From positions 1 through 64,000 of the forward strand of contig JADGKB010000036.1 in the NCBI GenBank assembly GCA_027604185.1: DNA of 64,000 nucleotides, written 5' to 3'. Below, in pieces: positions 18,410 to 64,000 of the stretch (positions are counted from its first letter, which is position 1; each line of letters begins with the position of its first letter). Both the position numbers and the translations under genes were made by a program. Source of the DNA: Boothiomyces macroporosus (Eukaryota > Chytridiomycota > Chytridiomycetes > Rhizophydiales > Terramycetaceae). The notes under the pieces are model-generated. The model did no database searches and was not told the origin of the DNA. It was given only the letters and a program-made list of their open reading frames with translations.

Positions 18410-21400
18410 TCATACAGCTCCAAGATAAGTAAAATCGAGAGGAATGTTCAAGTTTTCTGATTCTTGCCGTTTTCGGATCCTTTTCAATTGGCGAAGTCTT
18501 TCCCTTGCATTGGAAATGGTTTCCCCTGTTGAAAACACTTGAGCCATCATGTTGCTATATATTGCCACTTCTCGAACATATTTTGCTAAAGAAGACCCAG
18601 AAAGTAAAACCGGAATTGGAGCTACCCGTTCCATATCAGAACGGTACGATAGTGTCAGTTTAAAGCAAAAAGAGTTGTAGTCATGGCCGGCAATTGGTTC
18701 GATAATAATTTGAACAAAGTTGAACTGTCCTGGAATAGTATCATGCCTATAAGCAAGACCACTTTCATTCCAAACGATTGTTACAAAATTGTTTCCAATA
18801 TGACGCTTTTTCCCAGTGCAGAGCGTATCGTGTGCATACTTTGGCATCATGGTTGTTACATGGAAAATAACTTGATTCATTCGTTGGTCCGGTATGTAAC
18901 AAAGACCGTATTGCCCATCTATAGCTTCAGAAGAGGTATCCAGCCCTCCAGTGTAGATATCCCTGGTATTGGCAAGAGGAAATACACGACCAAGGTTGGA
19001 GAGGAATTGCAAATAATTGCTGGAGCCTCGCTGGTTAGCAAGGATTTCTACTTCATTTGTTTGTCCTGAATCTACAAATACAATTCCAATTTTGTGTAGA
19101 TCAATCGATGGGGTACGATCGAGAACACTAATTGCTCGTTGGGTAGCATCATCATTTGGAAGGAGGATTGGCTGTTCAGAATGACTTTCAAGGGATGGGT
19201 ACGGTTGGAATTGCAATATCAAAAAAGCAGGATCCATAAAATTCCTGAATGATTCCACATCTAAACCAATTGTATCGCTCTCTTGAACTTCCAAATTGAA
19301 GGATTTTGAATGTTTCAATTCAGGAATAGAATTTGAAGTACTCAGGGAAGATATTGATTTCGATCGCTCTGCGACATAACTCTGTGGTATCTTTGTTGGG
19401 TCGTCAGTGCTTCCATTTAGCATGTCCAAAAATATTCCAACATTTTGGATATTTCTACCGACATCATTTAGTATTCGGGAGTAAAGTACTGTTATTCCAG
19501 CAGGACGTCTGAAAACAATTTCACACACATTGTTTTCATCAGAGGATACTGTGATCAAAGTATTAACCAAACACCAGGTCTGTACATTAACTTTCTTTGT
19601 TGAAGTCCAATTTTGAACTGAAGGTTTTGGAGCGCAGTCAATATAAGTGTGCTGAACCATCATGTCAAGAATCTGGGTTATCATTAATTTACCAATTCTA
19701 CAGATTCATCCAATTCTTGCTTACTAGCAGCTTCTGTATTTGCAATCATACTTGTTATAATTTTTTGCACAAATTTCTGTCTGTCAGACAGCTTTAGGGA
19801 CAAAAACCAAGTTTGCGTAACATAGTAAGCAAACGTTGAAACATATGGATTGTTTGCATTTCGCAAATAGGAAAGCGCAATACCAAAAACTCTTCTATAG
19901 TTTTCTACCGTCAAGTTTTTGATTAAATTCGGATGGGAAGCTAAAGATGCCAAAAATTCCAGGTTTGGTAAAGCTAGATTGGAGGAGGTAACTTGCGATA
20001 TTTTCATGATTATGTCCCCTAAATATTTGGTTGAACTACCGGGTAATTCATAAATTGCTAGTGACAGACCAAGTATGCATTGCTTGGAAATTGGAAACGG
20101 TTTGTTTAATCCATTGAAGATTGTATAAACCAGCCCGTCTTGCAAATTTTTTGAGTAAAACCCTTTGTATAGGAATAGTGTGAAGGAAATCTGATAGAGA
20201 GACAGATAAATGTCATTCTTTTTACCAACTGGAATGTCCGTCAAATTTTTATGGGCCTTCTCCTTTTGAAGTAAATCGCAAACTGTTTCACAAAGTATTC
20301 TTATCGGAACAGGATTGTGAATACATATTGCTTGATTAGAAATGTATGTTTTAGCTTTTTCCAGCGTACTTAAAAGGAGTTGAGTATTAGTTTCATATTT
20401 CAGAATGGCAACGATAGAATAAATACTTTCTGCATGCGGTAATATCGTATACGATAGTTCTCCAAGATTTCCCAATACCCTGCTGTTAATCGAGAGAATA
20501 GTAGGGGCAGTACTTAATTCATCATCAAAAATATATAATATCTGATTCCGATTGTTACACGACACAGTAGTGATAAAGTTCATTGCTTCGGTTCTTGCTA
20601 AAGGATGGACAGTAGAATTCCAACTAGCTAATCGGCACAGCCATGTGTAAATGCTGATTGAAATGGAATTCAGGTGTTTCTGCGTTGCTAAATGAAAGAT
20701 TTTTATCAAGTACTTGATGGCCAAAACTACTGAATTGGTAGTGAGATTCCCTGGCCTAAAATTGTTTGACAATTTTACAGGGTTTCCAATATTTTTAATG
20801 GTTTGTGACTGTTGCACCCATATCGGCGAAATATATTGGTTTTCCACGCAAAAGACATTACAGGCACTTCGCAGGAGCACATCGACAACATATTCTATGT
20901 TTTCAATCCTAAAATCACAAACTGACTTCATTAGCCAATCATATATGCACAACAAAACTGATTCTGAATTTTCTGAATTGATCGACAGAATAATTTTTTT
21001 CAGAATGGTATCTAATCGCTCCGACTTGAATATATCGATATGTGACAGTGATAATACATTTCCTAGTACATTATTCCTGACTTCATTCGGGACAGTGTGC
21101 CTTAGATATAGTTGTTCAATCATGTTATCGACATAGTCCAAGTACTTTGAAGTGTTACTCCATAATAATTTGCTGGAAGATAAAATTATGAAATCGTATG
21201 TTTGCCTGGAGCCATTTCGGGATAAATTTAAAAGTGTTTCCAGCAGTTTCACCTTTTGAGTGGTTACTAGATGGGTATTGTAAATTTTAGACAGCATTCC
21301 AAACAGTTTGTTGAACAAATGAAACTCTATCGCCATTTCTAAAGAGCTTTGGTTAATATTGTCTACCTATCCATTTCTTTGTTGAACTCGGGACTGCTAT

Positions 21401-22467
21401 TAACAATTTGGTACCTTATCTTGCAGGATGGCTGCTTTTCAAGCGGCCAAATCCAAGAACACCCCTCAAATATATCAACTACTTTGTCCCAATCCATCAA
21501 GTTGAGCTTATCTGCATCTTCACATTTATATATCACAGAAAGTGTTGTTTCCAATAGTGCACTAACTACATGCAGATCTTTCTTTTCAACACACTGGGCG
21601 AATCCCTAGATAAAAAAGATTATTTACATTCAGCAATAATGCAGTCCCGTGAAACTGGTACAAGTCTTCGACAAAAGTCCTTTTTAAAAAGTACAAGGCG
21701 CCAACCACGCAAAAGACATCAAATTTGGAATTTTGATGGAGAATTTCAAACACTAGGTTCATAGTTAAACTTGCGCTATGAGATACTAGCAAATTTTTCA
21801 AGATATTCCAAGCCGCATCTTCACAATCGGTATCCATCAAACTTGTACATAGTTGCCTCAAAAAATCCGGAAGTAGTGCAGACGGTAAATTGCCAAATCG
21901 ACATAGGGTATCCAAAAGAGCAAGACAGTGAATTCGCAAGTGACCCAATTCGAAATACAATGTAATCCCATTCATAATTTGTGTAATATTATCCGCGCTA
22001 AGATAAACATAAGAAAATTTGATGACATTCGTTACATATTGCATCAGTTCAACTCTAATGTCTTTTTGCTTTTTTGAATTAACTTCCCCAAGGATCCAAC
22101 GGCCAAGCAGTCCTCCTATATCGTGTTCAAAGTGTCTCAAGTCCCGCCCTTGTTTGGTCAAATCTTTAAGTAGTCCTAGTCTTTGAGGGATGGTGTCTGA
22201 TGATCCACTTGAAATAATTTTGAAAAAATCTAATCGGAGTAAATCGCAATCAGTATAATGGTATAATATGCATGCTTTAATCCAATCATACGCTTCAGGA
22301 CGAAGTTGGCCGGACGTGAAAGGTACAATCTTGTTCCAACAACTTACCAGCTGTTGACTGGGGACGTCGTTGTTCCTAATGAAATCTGTTATAGCTAGTA
22401 GATTTTTTGATTGAGCTGCAATGTTTGTGGACTGGTCTAAATTTTGAACCAGCTCCCTGAGATTCAT
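18410..22467 (-). CDS. TSC2: tuberin (TSC2), RapGAP-domain protein
   Basis: GTPase-activating subunit of the TSC complex, which turns off Rheb and hence TORC1. The N-terminal ~900 residues are helical HEAT-like (tuberin domain); the C-terminal RapGAP domain contains FLSNLGRVFPL, GLCYIPD, HVTTMMP and the asparagine-thumb region KKRHIGNNFVTIVWNESG, the signature of the family. Three introns of 20-22 nt were reconstructed (near 21565-21586, 21340 and 19684), each restoring one frame. Length about 1,290 residues, shorter than human tuberin (1,807), similar to fission yeast Tsc2. Start ATG at 22467 is 21 nt from the divergent TMEM115 start. TSC1 is not in this window. Confidence 0.92.
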
Positions 22468-22488
22468 TTTGTTAATCAAAAAATTAAA

Positions 22489-23430
22489 ATGGATTTGAAC
22501 CGATATATAAATGGAAGAAACCAAGCAACCATATTACTGATCATCATTTCGCTGCTGTTTTCGTTTGTTGATTACATGACGGAATACTCTGTGTTTTCAA
22601 TTATACCCATGCAAACAGTTTTTAAACCGTGGACATTAATAACCGCGGGCTTGGTCCAGAAGCCTCTATTCCTAATCAATTTACCGATATTGTATTTTAT
22701 GGGAAGTTATTTTGAAGGCTACTGGGGTAGAACAGAATTCTTGCGCCATTTTGCGATAACTGTAGTTGGAACGAATGTGATTACCTCCATGATTATGATT
22801 TTACGAAACATTTTCTTTGAAGACGAGGATGATCTATTTCAATTAATTAATGGACTTGGCTCATTTCTATGTGCATTGCTCGTTGCATTCAAGCGAGCAG
22901 TACCCGAACATAATTTGGAATACAAAGGATTGTCCATTAGGGTTAAAGTATTGCCTATCTAACTTAGTATCTCCCTTCCATTAACATCCTGATACATCTG
23001 GTTTTATTCTTACTTGGATATATTTCAACATCATTCTACACCCACACCATTGGCTCAATAGTATCCTGGATATATATTAGATACTACAAATACAATGATG
23101 GTGTGAGAGGAGATCGTTCGGAAACATTTTCATTCATAAGTTTCTTTCCAGATTCGTTAGCGTAATTATTGTTGATTATAGGGATTATATAAAACCACTT
23201 TCTACATTTGTCTATAGATTTATGGTCAAATTGAAATTCCTTCCTCCGTTACCTCCAAGACCCCAATTTGTAGATCCAGAGGCACAATCTGTCCCTAGCC
23301 CACCACCGCGTCGAGTAGAAGAAGTTATTTTTGAATCGACACAATCTGATGCGGATAGGAGAAAGTACTTTTTATTAACTTTAGAGCATTGGCATTGGAA
23401 GCACTTAATTCACGATTGCAACAATCCTGA
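22489..23430 (+). CDS. TMEM115: TMEM115-like Golgi membrane protein (rhomboid-like, DUF1751)
   Basis: Polytopic membrane protein of the Golgi, related in fold to rhomboids but lacking catalytic residues. Seen: an N-terminal hydrophobic helix, FKPWTLITAGLVQ, GSYFEGYWGRTEFL and the loop AVPEHNLEYKGLSIRVKYLP across a 20-nt intron, all typical of the family. Three introns were reconstructed (GTATTGCCTATCTAACTTAG, GTAATTATTGTTGATTATAG, GTACTTTTTATTAACTTTAG). The last one decides the C-terminus: splicing gives DRRKALALEALNSRLQQS, the normal family end, whereas reading through gives an unrelated tail ending at 23443. Confidence 0.9.
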
Positions 23431-58005: not shown

Positions 58006-60426
58006 TCATGCATATCTGCTTTTAGGTCGCTGGCCCTTTGCGCTTGGATAGCCATCGTTTAACCCTCTTGATTTACTTCGCTTTTCGCTTGAAAGGTCGT
58101 AAATTGATTCCCCCATCAAATCCGAAGATACAAATACCTCTTCATTATCTTGCGATAAAGCATAATCTAACGCACCTTGAAGAGGCGAAATTTGGTGACC
58201 CCCTTTCCTTGGTGCTTCGTTTTGAAGCGTAGTTCGTTCTGGGAGTTCGAGCTACAGTTAGAATTCTTTTACTTGCAGAGTTGCAATATTGTCTCCTCGA
58301 TATCTGGGATTGGTATCCCCCATTCCAAGAACTAACTTTACATACTGGCAAACTGGTCGTCTCAAAGTTGATATAGATTGAGGCCGTCCAAGCTTCTTTT
58401 CCCTTCCTCTAGTAATAATCTTTCTTAGGGCCCAATCATCCTTTTCCTCATTGTACACGGTCTGCTGTTCCAATTTTCGTTGTTCTTCAGTAGGAATAAA
58501 GTTTTCAGTTATGGTAATCTTCAACTCCAATTCCCGGGATAGTTCTCTTATGGTATCCAGCAAATCTTCTTTTTCTATCCGAAACTCGTCTTTGACATCG
58601 TTGATTTCTTCCTTAACTTCCTGCAACTTGCTCCAGAGTTTCTTTAACTTTTTTGTTTTCACTTCTACTTCTTCCTGAAGAGACGAAAAGTTTTCTTCTA
58701 ATTGAAGTTGAACTTCTTGCTTTGCTTCGATCCTCTTTTCCAAGAGCCTCTTTCGTCGCTGTTCTTCTTGAAGACGCGCCTCAGTTTCTTGCAGAATACG
58801 TTCTTGTTCATTAATCTTTTCTTCTATATTTACACCACCAATGAGTAATTTGTCTTCCATTGCCTGTAGTTTTATGGCTAAAGCTTCTCTTTCCTGCCTT
58901 TCTTGCTCTAAGTCTGCAGCTCTCTTTTCCAGCTCTGCAGCAATTCTTTGTCTTTCTTCCACAACCATATCCTTGGAAGCTAGCAGTGCCTTCTTTTCCG
59001 CCTCCACTTCTTCTTGAAGTTTGGAGATTGTTTCTGGATCAAGGACTGCCAGTGGATTAACTACACCTTCATCCACCACAGCTTCTTCAATCGATTCATC
59101 ATCTCCCTCTCCTTCTGATGAAATCACATCAATATCCTCGTCTCTTGAAGGTTCACGCTGTTTCTTCTTTACCACCGTTTTTTTAACTACTTTTGTAACT
59201 ACTTTTGTTTGTGCAGGGCCTTTCTGCCTGGCTTCAAGGGCTAGACGCAGTTGTTCGATTTCATTTTGATACTCTCTCAGCATAGCATCCTTAGGATCCT
59301 CATTGATCACTGGCTTATTCTTGATATTCTTTGCTCGATTAGCATACCTCAATGTTGACAAAGTCTCATCAAAATTGTAGCTTGCAGGACTTAGTGTAGC
59401 AATCATCAAAGTCTTTGCGTTACCACCTAGCGAGTCTTGAAGTAGCCCTAATAGTGAACAAAAAGATACTGGTTAACTTGGAATCTCTATATGGAATGTG
59501 TGAGCTTTTACCGTCTACTAATGCTGAAATACAATTGCCCAATGCTGACAATGACAAGTTAATTTTAGTTGCTTCTTTCAACCGATCGCCTGAGGCACCA
59601 GTTTTTGATTGTCTTTCAGACCCAGCTAGATCAACCAAGTTTAGTTTTCCTGAAACATACTTGTCTTTCGTGAATATCAAGTTACCTTGTCCATCAGGGC
59701 CAACCTCTGAAGACTCTATCGTAATAGTAAAGATGGAGTGCGATCTGGATGAATTTTCGTTCATTAAAGTAGCACCAACCGATCGGTGCTTGTTCCCCAA
59801 TTCCATCAGCGTTTCTAGCTCTTCAACCGACTTGACAACCACTGCTGACAAATCTTTTACAAACACTCCAGAATCAGGGTTTTCTTTCAAATCTAAGCCT
59901 CCTTTTGGATTCTTGCTTGGTTTAATCAGCAAATCTTTGACTTCCTCATTGTAAATTTCCAAAAATGACACCCGTACGAGAAACTTTTTATGTCCCGTTC
60001 GTGAAATGAAATCGAAAATGTGGTGAAAACACTGGGGAATTATACCCCTTAAATGCGGGACCGTTGAAACACCTTGCATTGAAAAGGTCTTTCCTGTTCC
60101 GGTCTGTATTAGCAATGGATTACTTGGCCGTATGCAAATACAGTTCCATTGAATCCTCCAAGGGCTGCATCAACAATAATTCTGGCAGTGGAATTATACA
60201 CTTCGGACTATGTTAGTATTTCGAATACTTGCGTTGAATCTTCATCAAATACCGCATCAAAAGAAAATGTCTTGACATCAGATGGATTTTTAGGGTTCGC
60301 CAGTGATATGGAACCATTCTTTTTATTCATTTCTGCAATATTTGTATGACCAGCTTGCTTTTCCTTTTCATTGAATGGTCGACACCTCCCTACTACAATC
60401 ACATTTTCCTTCTCTCCTGCAGTCAT
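58006..60426 (-). CDS. KIF3: kinesin-2 motor subunit (KIF3/FLA10-like)
   Basis: Anterograde intraflagellar transport motor. Motor domain: [12 protein letters not shown]-loop AYGQ|TGTGKT (GTAATCCATTGCTAATACAG lies inside it), [19 protein letters not shown] and, after a 22-nt intron, LLQDSLGGN. The neck [22 protein letters not shown] is diagnostic for kinesin-2. A long charged coiled coil follows, then the conserved tail [14 protein letters not shown] and [14 protein letters not shown] 21-nt intron there leads to a last exon of about 75 residues ending at 58006; read without splicing the frame would stop at 58258. About 785 residues. Another intron (21 nt, after DEDSTQ) is near the start. Confidence 0.93.
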
Positions 60427-60480
60427 AGTTTAAACGCGACTGAATTCTGACGTGGAGTTGAAAACTTTTAAATTACGAAT

Positions 60481-63400
60481 TCACAGTTTTATATATACGA
60501 AATAGTTTGCGTTCACAATAGGAAGATGTTTCCTAACACCATCAAACCCTCTTTCTTCAGCAAAAAGCTCGTCTTGCCACCTCGATCTTTCACCTTGAAG
60601 CAAGTCTTTCAGGCTATCGACTGGAGTAGATGAATCACAAGAATAGCCTGATGGTACAGCGACAAAAAAGTCCTTTAGTCTAAATTCATTTTCAAGATGT
60701 TTCGCCATGTCTTCAAATACAAGCAATGTAAGTGGAACGAGCCTGGAATAATTTTGAGATAGGGTCGGTTTGGCAACATCCAAAGTCAGATCTTCCATGT
60801 TTCTGCACAGTTCCTGGTCTTCACTAATTTCTACCGGTTTGTGGTTTTTTATGTAATTGATTCTATAGTCTTGAACTCCAACAATTAGTATCCCATCGCT
60901 TTCTAGCCGTTCAGCTGCCCGCTTTGCAATCGATATAACCAACTTGCGATAATCAGATATCCAATTTTCTGATTTGAGGGTGGTCGTGGACAAATCAAGG
61001 TGTGGCAGGATATACAAGTTTACTGGGACATCGTCTATTAGGATCTCTTCAGCATTTCTAAATGTTGACGGATCATACTTGTTTTTTCTAACTCTACTAA
61101 AAAACTTTCGCGATCTTACTCGTACCTGGCTCATTTCTACATCTCCAAATCTATTGGCAATGTCTTTGACAAGAATTTCCTGATCTAAATCATCAATTTC
61201 CCAAACAGAGCTGGTATTCAAAAATTCTGGGTCAGAGTCCATTTCGCAAATCTCTTCAGTAAATTCAATCAAACAATCCTCTTGCCAATCTACTGGTGAA
61301 AAGTCAAATTCCACATTGTTCTTTCTGAATACTGCAATGTACTCGTGCTCCATAACCAAGAAATCGTATTGTACTGAGAGATACTGTCCCAGTACGGCAC
61401 CCTGGCAATGTCTTTGTTTCTTTATAATCAACTCCTCCAACTCAAACCCTTCTTGCAAGTAAAGTTCTATTAGCTTGAAGGAAACAGGGATTATGTAGCA
61501 CTCTTTTCGGTTATCCCCGATTCCCAGGGTTAGTCTCCTATCAAATTTCAATAGTCGATAGGATTCTTTCACTACGAAAAGCATCTCTGTCAAAAAGTCA
61601 TCAAGCTCAGGGATACGCGAAAGGTCATCCGCAATCAGTGAACTATGGATAAATTTTCAAATAGTTACCTGTACTGGATACAATCTTTGTATGGAGGATG
61701 GGAAAGGATGTGATCATAGGAAGAATCTTCAAAAAGTGGACCACTAAGTTTTCTAGCATCTCCCAATACAATTATCGGCCGGTACACAGCTGAAATCCTC
61801 ATTGACTTTGGAATTGCAAACGCTGAATTTCGTTGCGCCAAAGTAATTGCAAGGGGATTGACATCTACACCGCACAATCTAGGTCAGTATTCAGTCACCT
61901 TCTTTTCAACAGCATGGACTCTATTGCATCTGTCCCTCTTCCTATAAAATTGCTCAATACTCTTTCTCCCTCTCTGGTATACTTGTTCAAAGCCCAGTTC
62001 ACCAATTGAGGAAGCCAAGTTCCTTAAATTAAAATCAATTACCATGATAATCGCTACCAGAGTGACTTGCCCACCTTGGTGCTCTGCTTGGAATGTCGTA
62101 AAACGTCGTGTCAATAACCATTGAAAATAGATGGTCGTCAGCAGGTTTGTAATTAGCAAAATAAGTTGGTGGTACCACTGTAAACCCTGGATTCTCAATC
62201 TCACTACTCTTTACACTTCTTGTAGAATAGTATTCGTGCTTGTAATTTTCGAAATCGCACGAGTATACTACAGAAGTTGTATCCTGATTCACAATAGTAG
62301 TCAGTGGTTGGTTGTTGGAAGAGAGGTTGCCAGTATGTAGTGAATTTGGTGCTAACTGATAGCAGCCCTCACAGATTAACAAACCATTGTTCCCTATCAT
62401 CAAAGCAGTTCTACATTGTCTCCATTCTGAGGCTTTGGAAAATGAGCAGAAAGCACACTTTATAATCTTCTTTTCCATCTTTTTGGTAGTTGTAGTTGCA
62501 GTAATGTTCTTCCTAAACTGCTGCAGGATTTTAGCTGTGGCTATATCAGTTCAATTTACCATCTTTCTTTTTTCTAGCATATTTCTCCTTTTCGCGAGTT
62601 CTAATGTCATTTCTATTTTTCATATTCGTTGTGATAAAAACGCTCTTTGGGTGCGGATGAGATTCTGGGAATCTCTTTTCAAAGCAATATGTACATATAT
62701 CGAATGTCGAAAAGTAGTCCTTGCTACACTGTTCACAGGTATACCATGATTCATCTTTTAAAGCCATATTACAGCTATCGCACATGAAGCTGTCATCAAA
62801 GTCATCCTGACCTTAGAATTTGAATTACCATTCTATTCAAGATCCCTTCATGTTTTGGACACCAAAACAGAATTCCTCGTTCAAAGAAGGAAATATCCTT
62901 ATCGGTGCACCCCAAATGATAATTCCGAAAGCATTTTGATTTAAAACAGCCAATCGTCGCCCCAGTCTCTTCGCACTTGATACACTTTAGCCCCCTCGAG
63001 CGACGAACAGCCTTCCCAACATTGTACCAATTCCCTTCATTTACATAAACCTCTGGAGAATATCGGGCACATTTTTCATGAGCCCACAACGGAGTAAAGT
63101 TTTTAGATTTTGTTCCGATAGAGATTAAAAATGGTTTCTTGCTGACAAAAGCTCCTAATCCATTTTCATGTTCTGGCAGATGGCAAAAGGTACATAGTAT
63201 TGTTTCTTTTATCGTTCCAGTTTCTTGATTTTCAAAGTTTTCATCGCCAAATTTGTCCAAGACGAAATCTACTTCATTCAAAGGAGAAAATAGAATTTCC
63301 TTTGCAAAAGAAGTTCTTGGATGAACATGGAAAGGAAAACTGTACTCGAAACATACCAAGCAAATATCAAACGACTCATAACCCCAATCATCAGTAGGAA

Positions 63401-64000
63401 CTTCGCAATATGTGCAATATACCCTAACATTTCTAATTCTCTTGTTGCACCTGTTGCAATATATTTTCCAAGATTCGTCATCTGAATCATATACTTTACT
63501 TTTTCGATTTTGTCGAACTACTGGTTGGCATTCCTCTTCACTTTCTGTTTCATCTACAATTTGATTAATCAGCTCTTCAGATGGCATATTTTCGCATTCC
63601 CTAATTCTCCTGCTGTCCGAGTCAATCATCTCATCATAATTTGCACTCCATCCTAAAAATCGAAAGCGAATAGATCCTTCAAAAAGTCCAATCATTTTCG
63701 CCGGCCACCATTTTCCAGTCTTGTCCTTTACTTCAACGATTTTGTTTGGGACAAAGCCGTGAATATTTATTACCTCTGCATTTTCAAGTGGATTGTTTGC
63801 TAGAGGAATGGTTACATCCTGGTTCAAAAGCTGAAGAGTTCTGCGAGTGTTGAATGAACCAGTAGATACAAATTGTTTGAACGGGAGTTTTATAACTTTC
63901 TTTGCAGGTTCTACCGTCGACTTTGGCTTTTCTTCCTTTTCTTTTTCTTCTATTAAAGACGATTCGTCTTTAATTGGTTTGGCAGATCTAGCGATTATGG
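60481..64000 (-). CDS. chromatin-reader/DNA methyltransferase fusion (5' end beyond window)
   Basis: One continuous spliced frame, open at the right edge of the window. Modules in order: (1) Lys/Glu-rich start; (2) Tudor/chromo-barrel-like fold, 63737-63606 (VEVKDKTGKWWPAKM, FLGWSANYDEMIDSDSRRI); (3) ZZ-like finger, ~63461-63326 (CNRC, CTYC, DICLVC, HVHP); (4) extended PHD, ~63197-62843 (LCTFC, HEKCARY, CIKC, HLGC, WCPKH); (5) second ZZ-like finger, ~62795-62640; (6) GATA-like CxxC...CxxC finger, ~62457-62345; (7) methyltransferase with SAM motif FIGRGT (61948-61931), GVDVNPLA and catalytic SHPPY (61703-61689); (8) C-terminal domain without a known match. Introns at 62807-62828, 62541-62559, 62023-62042, 61879-61898 and 61643-61668 hold the frame. 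The catalytic part resembles bacterial HPPY-type DNA methylases; adenine-N6 or cytosine-N4 specificity cannot be told. Confidence 0.85.

Follow-up and report, generated by a model that had tools for sequence, protein, structure and literature searches.

Introduction

Robust N6-methyladenine (6mA) occurs in the DNA of some eukaryotes, early-diverging fungi among them, and a 2026 review names MTA1c, MetB and METTL4-like enzymes as fungal writers (PMC13297926). In Mucor, deletion of metB is reported to lower 6mA by 70-75% and to affect asymmetric 6mA, and deletion of mta1 or p1 to abolish symmetric 6mA (PMC11258239). Bdelloid rotifers carry N4CMT, which is described as having no eukaryotic homologues (PMC8885841), and an ichthyosporean p1 subunit is reported to contain a PHD domain, another link between a chromatin reader and the writing of 6mA (PMC12695648). 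Here, we describe a gene of the chytrid Boothiomyces macroporosus in which chromatin-reader modules are joined to a prokaryote-type amino-methyltransferase (MTase). It lies at the end of the window, i.e., the whole stretch of 64,000 nucleotides under analysis (bases 1-64000 of the 118,738-base contig JADGKB010000036.1, here C36, from an assembly of 15.2 Mb in 216 contigs). The gene probably encodes a chromatin-guided DNA amino-MTase of early-diverging fungi.

Iyer, Zhang and Aravind are said to have surveyed the eukaryotic adenine MTases in 2016. No description of the present family was found in the open literature searched; Mondo 2017, whose Pfam-count comparison is retold as finding 44 domains that differ between early-diverging fungi and Dikarya (PMC8298701), may list its Pfam domain PF01555. 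If the proposed function is right, a further widespread writer with built-in readers would tie a DNA mark of bacterial type to the state of chromatin. Bdelloid N4CMT would then be joined by another case, of independent and probably much older origin.

Domain Architecture

From the N- to the C-terminus, the protein consists of four MBT/Tudor barrels, ZZ-like fingers, an extended PHD (ePHD) finger, a GATA-like finger, an amino-MTase domain and a degenerate second MTase half. The original prediction, made from the window alone, had placed reader modules in the same polypeptide as a prokaryote-type amino-MTase, and this is borne out by domain matches, folds and fungal homologues. It had also called for a profile search of the catalytic half, which now matches PF01555 (N6_N4_Mtase) with 47.3 bits against a curated cut-off of 26.7; a scan of NCBIfam gave matches far below cut-off only.

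Among the predicted readers, the MBT/Tudor and ePHD assignments are firm. MBT (PF02820) is matched in the N-terminal part with E 5.3e-14 and 52.6 bits (cut-off 22), together with the barrel fold, and zf-HC5HC2H exceeds the Pfam cut-off at the ePHD, which has a PDB fold match as well. Structure models of the window's own exons resemble PHF20L1-like Tudor and PHF6-like ePHD domains. The ZZ and GATA fingers fared less well: all ZZ matches fall under the Pfam cut-off (E 2e-4 to 1e-2; ZZ_ADA2 with 21.7 bits against 27.5), and the GATA finger of the window protein is a pattern call, with PF00320 matched only in Phycomyces at E 3.7e-4, below cut-off. The suggested control by histone marks is a possibility drawn from the domain folds.

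Distribution and Origin of the Family

A search of the MTase part against about 5.8 billion proteins returned 30 matches, and a fungal profile returned 24, six of them new. All 20 species-named matches from both searches come from early-diverging fungi, Rozellomycota to Mucorales: Phycomyces, Rhizopus, Mortierella, Lunasporangiospora, Diversispora, Entrophospora (two), Basidiobolus, Kickxella, Linderina, Coemansia (three), Spiromyces, Smittium, Dimargaris, Syncephalis, Geranomyces, Borealophlyctis and Paramicrosporidium (Rozellomycota). Dikarya, animals and plants are absent among the listed matches, although the search scored a candidate only if it was similar in length and had short words in common with the query, and such absence is no proof. 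The ePHD model PF13771 was precomputed in nine of 25 fungal-type matches, from Paramicrosporidium to Phycomyces, many others being partial or lacking the N-terminus. The fusion of ePHD and MTase is shared by Rozellomycota and Mucorales and so probably dates back to the early fungi. A private recent capture is ruled out by these homologues, several with the same fusion, in several fungal phyla.

The prokaryotic relatives are far more numerous. Of 7,998 candidates for a profile built from four prokaryotic matches, 4,599 proteins reached E 0.001 or better, and a profile search of one-per-species genomes found 530 loci, the best 80 of which were used for the analyses below. Chloroflexota, WOR-3, Nitrospirota and some archaea are among their sources. 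As regards a viral origin, four viral contigs were found with the prokaryotic profile, and none with the fungal one.

The 22 fungal-type rows of a quick tree cluster together (SH-aLRT 93). Three rows saturated there (P0030, P0151 and P0152, end branch 10) and the long Paramicrosporidium row (2.56) were dropped from a careful tree, in which 21 fungal-type rows are split from 44 prokaryotic rows (40 of the 80 loci plus four proteins) at 100/100; fungal-type matches without the HPPY motif discussed below were left out of both. In the careful tree, two Mucorales, two Glomeromycotina, three Kickxellales and the chytrids group as the species do, Basidiobolus, Dimargaris, Syncephalis and Mortierella have no settled placement, and the window MTase joins two metagenome proteins (97/90). 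With a midpoint root only, the fungal clade is sister to the prokaryotic clade and not nested within it, so the bacterial capture originally envisaged cannot be read from it (in the quick tree, distant rows were saturated); nor did a single capture hold, as the family is spread over early-diverging fungi instead. The tree agrees with descent from one old acquisition. We infer that a very early fungus received the enzyme from prokaryotes, the direction resting on the distribution and on the restriction-enzyme context. Because the 80 loci are the best of 530 and 40 of them stand in the tree, the donor may lie outside the sampled prokaryotic rows.

The sister position under a midpoint root would also suit an ancestral eukaryotic gene retained in early fungi, which is compatible with the proposed function. 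Given that all 20 species-named matches are fungal, against 530 prokaryotic loci, we leave this origin a small share of probability.

Prokaryotic Relatives and the Likely Substrate

The prokaryotic relatives would link the family to DNA. In a PADLOC scan, which covered three prokaryotic proteins and the fungal protein P0006 rather than the window protein, the type II MTase model (PDLC03376) was matched with E 2e-92 to 3e-97 by the former and 9.5e-33 by the latter. The prokaryotic type II MTases share with the fungal enzyme the domain order, the HPPY motif and the second half, a match extending to query residue 498 or beyond in 74 of the 80 loci. Unlike the fungal enzyme, they are about 500 amino acids (aa) long, have no eukaryotic readers, and some stand beside restriction-enzyme-like genes.

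A same-strand open frame, as called by a simple script, lies within 150 bases downstream in 50 of the 80 loci. Three REase_II models are matched by seven, six and three of these 50 downstream genes, i.e., by at most 16, overlap between the models being possible, and Pfam DpnII by seven. As a control, 50 of 75 extracted upstream genes were scanned: no REase_II is among the 25 listed of the 33 defence-related families that they match, which include AbiEi and one type III MTase. Several downstream gene families recur (e.g., at L023 and L053), two of them in 20 and 18 of the 80 loci; their representatives lack a Pfam match, and they are candidates for unrecognised restriction enzymes.

Because the relatives match type II MTases and some of them neighbour restriction-enzyme-like genes, DNA is the likely substrate; the kinship with bacterial DNA amino-MTases that had been proposed is upheld by the type II profiles, these neighbours and the tree. 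The solved sequence closest to the fungal profile is likewise a putative DNA modification methylase (2zie, E 3.1e-9), with the tRNA enzyme Trm11 at 8.2e-5.

Several observations weigh against a DNA substrate. When a model of the Geranomyces protein (pLDDT 84.8, pTM 0.90) was compared with the PDB, the top folds were the tRNA N2-methylguanosine (m2G) enzymes Trm11, TrmN and Trm14, with matches spanning residues 13-273, outside the second MTase half; in fold, the catalytic domain matches the Trm11/TrmN enzymes. Motif I precedes motif IV, as in those enzymes, and two prokaryotic relatives match TIGR01177 (E 9.7e-12 and 7.7e-8), with scores far under the cut-off of that model. These points suit a chromatin-tethered Trm11/TrmN-like enzyme that methylates nascent RNA, and because the fold comparison puts tRNA m2G enzymes first, an RNA substrate keeps some probability. 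We nevertheless consider it unlikely: THUMP appears neither among the families listed for the 1,136-aa part encoded in the window (E up to 0.1) nor among those of the N-terminal 755 aa (E up to 0.05), the motif is HPPY rather than D/N-PPY, the type II MTase profiles are far stronger, and some neighbours of the relatives are restriction-enzyme-like.

Catalytic Motif and Second MTase Half

Returning to the enzyme as a DNA MTase, the predicted FIGRGT, GVDVNP loop and SHPPY are all present, but SHPPY has His at the D/N/S position, and HPPY is neither DPPY nor SPPY. We take motif I (FIGRGT) to bind S-adenosylmethionine (SAM) and motif IV to be catalytic, as in related families. HPPY occurs in all 80 prokaryotic loci (AHPPY in 71, SHPPY in five, THPPY in four) and in 143 of the 146 proteins collected, two of the others having no PPY and P0030 having TSPPY. 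It is found in 26 of 29 fungal-type matches, all but P0020, P0029 and P0150, the last being only 203 aa long. Across 55 aligned sequences, HPPY, GD and R are invariant. SPPY is described as typical of most bacterial N4-methylcytosine (4mC) enzymes and DPPY of bacterial 6mA enzymes, with repeated switches of specificity (Rodriguez and others, PMC8885841). HPPY fits neither signature, and the choice between the 6mA and 4mC products put forward earlier is decided neither way by it.

In the prokaryotic relatives, hhalign matches the C-terminal domain with the second part of the MTase domain itself, its C-terminal half (probability 97.9 and E 4.2e-13 over 96 columns; a column-shuffled control gave 0.3), which shows an internal duplication. 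This second half shows neither motif I nor HPPY. The degeneration, together with the change of prokaryotic VLDYF to VLSNF in the fungal motif I, could mean that catalysis was lost and that the protein is a reader scaffold. FxGRGT, the GVDVNP loop, HPPY and GDNR are, however, all kept in the window protein and the aligned fungi, which makes a dead enzyme quite improbable.

Gene Structure and Genomic Context

The gene model was built by hand from the DNA. The extension of the contig past 64000 that had been advised located the gene start: the contig runs beyond the window end, and the whole gene occupies C36:66243-60481 on the minus strand, with its ATG at 66243. It has seven exons and six introns of 19-26 nt and encodes 1,878 residues, 1,136 of them inside the window, in one open frame without an internal stop. 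The part beyond the window adds one 19 nt intron and 742 residues with three MBT/Tudor and two ZZ-like repeats. The five introns of the window (22, 19, 20, 20 and 26 nt) are all GT..AG, and their excision joins reader and MTase exons in a single frame up to the end codon, as foreseen in the original prediction, which had taken the MTase to occupy a single exon; joined in frame it is, but spread over four exons (Table 1). Introns 3-5 of the window interrupt conserved MTase motifs that their removal restores (8-14 of 16 flanking residues match in each of five homologues), and the exon joins are therefore more than chance would give.

Table 1. Features of the reader-MTase gene within the window (positions in the window; residues numbered in the complete protein).
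Feature	Position	Strand	Support
3' part of reader-MTase gene, stop codon 60483-60481	60481..64000	-	one frame over 7 exons
Exon 2, window part (continues to C36:65450)	62829..64000	-	open frame
Fourth MBT/Tudor-like barrel (aa 821-876)	63597..63764	-	
ZZ-like finger (aa 919-973), weak	63306..63470	-	ZZ_ADA2 E 0.013, below cut-off; PDB best E 0.043
ePHD finger (aa 1009-1127)	62844..63200	-	Pfam over cut-off, PDB fold match
Intron, 22 nt (first in window)	62807..62828	-	junction: P0009 9/16 residues, four other homologues 0-4
Exon 3	62560..62806	-	open frame
Second ZZ-like finger of window (aa 1139-1189), weak	62636..62788	-	MAFFT repeat alignment
Intron, 19 nt, variable linker, weakest support	62541..62559	-	1-5/16 residues in the four homologues aligned there
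Exon 4, GATA-like finger and MTase start together	62043..62540	-	open frame, alignment
GATA-like finger (aa 1241-1278), weak	62350..62463	-	pattern; Phycomyces counterpart PF00320 E 3.7e-4, below cut-off
Amino-MTase domain (aa 1367-1599), three introns inside	61321..62085	-	PF01555 E 3.3e-12
Intron, 20 nt, within MTase	62023..62042	-	10-14/16 residues, five homologues
Exon 5	61899..62022	-	open frame
Motif I, VLSNFIGRGTDAIE, at aa 1402	61919..61960	-	alignment with homologues
Intron, 20 nt, within MTase	61879..61898	-	8-11/16 residues, five homologues
Exon 6	61669..61878	-	open frame
Motif IV, ILSHPPYKDC, at aa 1479	61680..61709	-	HPPY invariant in 55 aligned homologues
Intron, 26 nt, within MTase	61643..61668	-	9-12/16 residues, five homologues
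Exon 7	60481..61642	-	open frame
Degenerate second MTase half (aa 1635-1878)	60484..61215	-	assigned through homologues; same domain in fungi

Metagenome gene calls are usually unspliced. That readers and MTase are separate transcripts wrongly joined in a hand-made model from DNA alone is highly implausible, for although P0009 is known as a protein only, this metagenome predicted protein of 804 aa has barrel, ePHD and MTase in one chain, both halves also share one predicted protein in Phycomyces and Diversispora, and the GATA-like finger and the MTase start share exon 4.

The downstream neighbour is a kinesin gene on the minus strand (window 58258-60429), with introns of 21 and 20 nt whose excision restores the motor motif AYGQTGTGKT and a third, of 22 nt, read by eye. 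The tiny introns of the MTase gene are plausible, as those of the neighbouring kinesin are of like size. Both genes lie in a head-to-tail duplication of about 42.2 kb (C36:34370-76553 and 76554-118738), the first copy of which includes window positions 34370-64000. The copies are 99.93% identical, with 28 mismatches, all within the last 6.5 kb; the second stops exactly at the contig end, and the MTase gene is present and identical in both. This could reflect a tandem duplication of very recent date or else a loop in the assembly. Elsewhere, long frames on the minus strand at window 18413-22533 look by eye like a TSC2/tuberin RapGAP protein, and the genome has five division I/II chitin synthase loci, which agree with the MTase tree in pointing to a fungus or near relative.

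Proposed Function

As a chromatin-guided DNA amino-MTase, the protein would dock on marked or nucleosomal chromatin through its MBT/Tudor barrels and ePHD. The C-terminal enzyme would bind SAM via motif I, and a base flipped into the HPPY pocket would be methylated on its exocyclic amino group, 6mA being a slightly likelier product than 4mC. The degenerate second half may be a partner within the same chain, contributing to the holding or recognition of DNA. In all these respects, i.e., DNA substrate, catalysis, base, reader binding and the role of the second half, we infer function from the features above.

Given the reported effects of metB and mta1/p1 deletion on Mucor 6mA, and with the gene present in two other Mucorales, the activity of the enzyme is probably limited to few sites or few stages, or directed at cytosine. 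A more specific proposal, which we advance tentatively and would not yet bet on, is that of a third DNA amino-methylation system of early-diverging fungi beside MTA1c and MetB. It would read chromatin and write on DNA, have been fused since near the fungal root and not be seen in Dikarya, and use an HPPY active site, aided by a pseudo-MTase partner in the same chain, to deposit 4mC (or 6mA restricted to certain loci). The family may be an overlooked means for these fungi to mark chosen DNA stretches. Phycomyces has both a homologue (P0001) and published 6mA maps (PMC11258239), and the proposal can soon be tested there; in a word search, the main text of that paper mentioned 4mC only in the title of a reference.

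Comparison with Known DNA Methylation Systems

MetB of Mucorales is likewise a prokaryote-type DNA amino-MTase of early-diverging fungi, which writes asymmetric 6mA, but its described architecture is PF02384 with a target-recognition domain, and chromatin readers are not named there (PMC11258239). The motif methylated by MetB is AAAACA, and that of MTA1c is ApT. PF02384 does not appear among the families matched by the 1,136-aa part with E of 0.1 or less, so the protein is not a MetB, and a PF02384 search of the genome gave no match.

MTA1c/AMT1 of the MT-A70 family, the 6mA writer of early fungi and ciliates, also combines a catalytic with an inactive partner. It is characterised by PF05063, DPPW and separate subunits, whereas the present enzyme keeps its inactive half in the same chain; METTL3/METTL14 and MTA1/MTA9 similarly pair an active with a dead MTase as separate subunits. 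Membership in MT-A70 was rejected, as the families listed for the same part (E up to 0.1) do not include PF05063 and the motif is HPPY, not DPPW. The genome itself has three MT-A70 genes (C95:4848-5318, C79:64750-65046 and C72:43587-43718), which by motif we take to be METTL4-like, MTA1-like and an inactive MTA9-like partner, a set that suggests the presence of the symmetric 6mA complex. Two genes resembling PF00145 cytosine MTases (C55:66886-67884 and C113:32480-33472) look DNMT2-like by eye, the C55 match being crossed by two stop codons that may be unread tiny introns. Another PF01555 match, on C18 and below cut-off, has SPPW and resembles a trimethylguanosine synthase.

The reader modules share their fold and aligned aromatic residues with the Tudor-MBT domains of PHF20L1/L3MBTL and the ePHD of PHF6/PHF7. 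To our knowledge, none of these proteins has a DNA MTase in its chain.

As an acquisition of a prokaryotic enzyme by a eukaryote, and on that point alone, the family can be likened to the 4mC MTase described in Marchantia (PMC12344493). The likeness to bdelloid N4CMT drawn in the original prediction stands as an analogy: that enzyme is described as a PF01555 amino-MTase with a Royal-family reader, a read-histone/write-DNA layout and introns, as found in or proposed for the fungal gene (PMC8885841). In the same description, N4CMT is permuted, with motif IV before motif I, and has SPPY and one C-terminal chromodomain (PMC8885841), whereas the fungal enzyme has motif I first (aa 1402 versus 1479), HPPY, and four MBT/Tudor barrels, ePHD and ZZ/GATA-like fingers before the MTase. 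The fungal enzyme also carries a second MTase half after the MTase and spans the early fungi, unlike N4CMT. By analogy, it may work like bdelloid N4CMT, yet outside that family.

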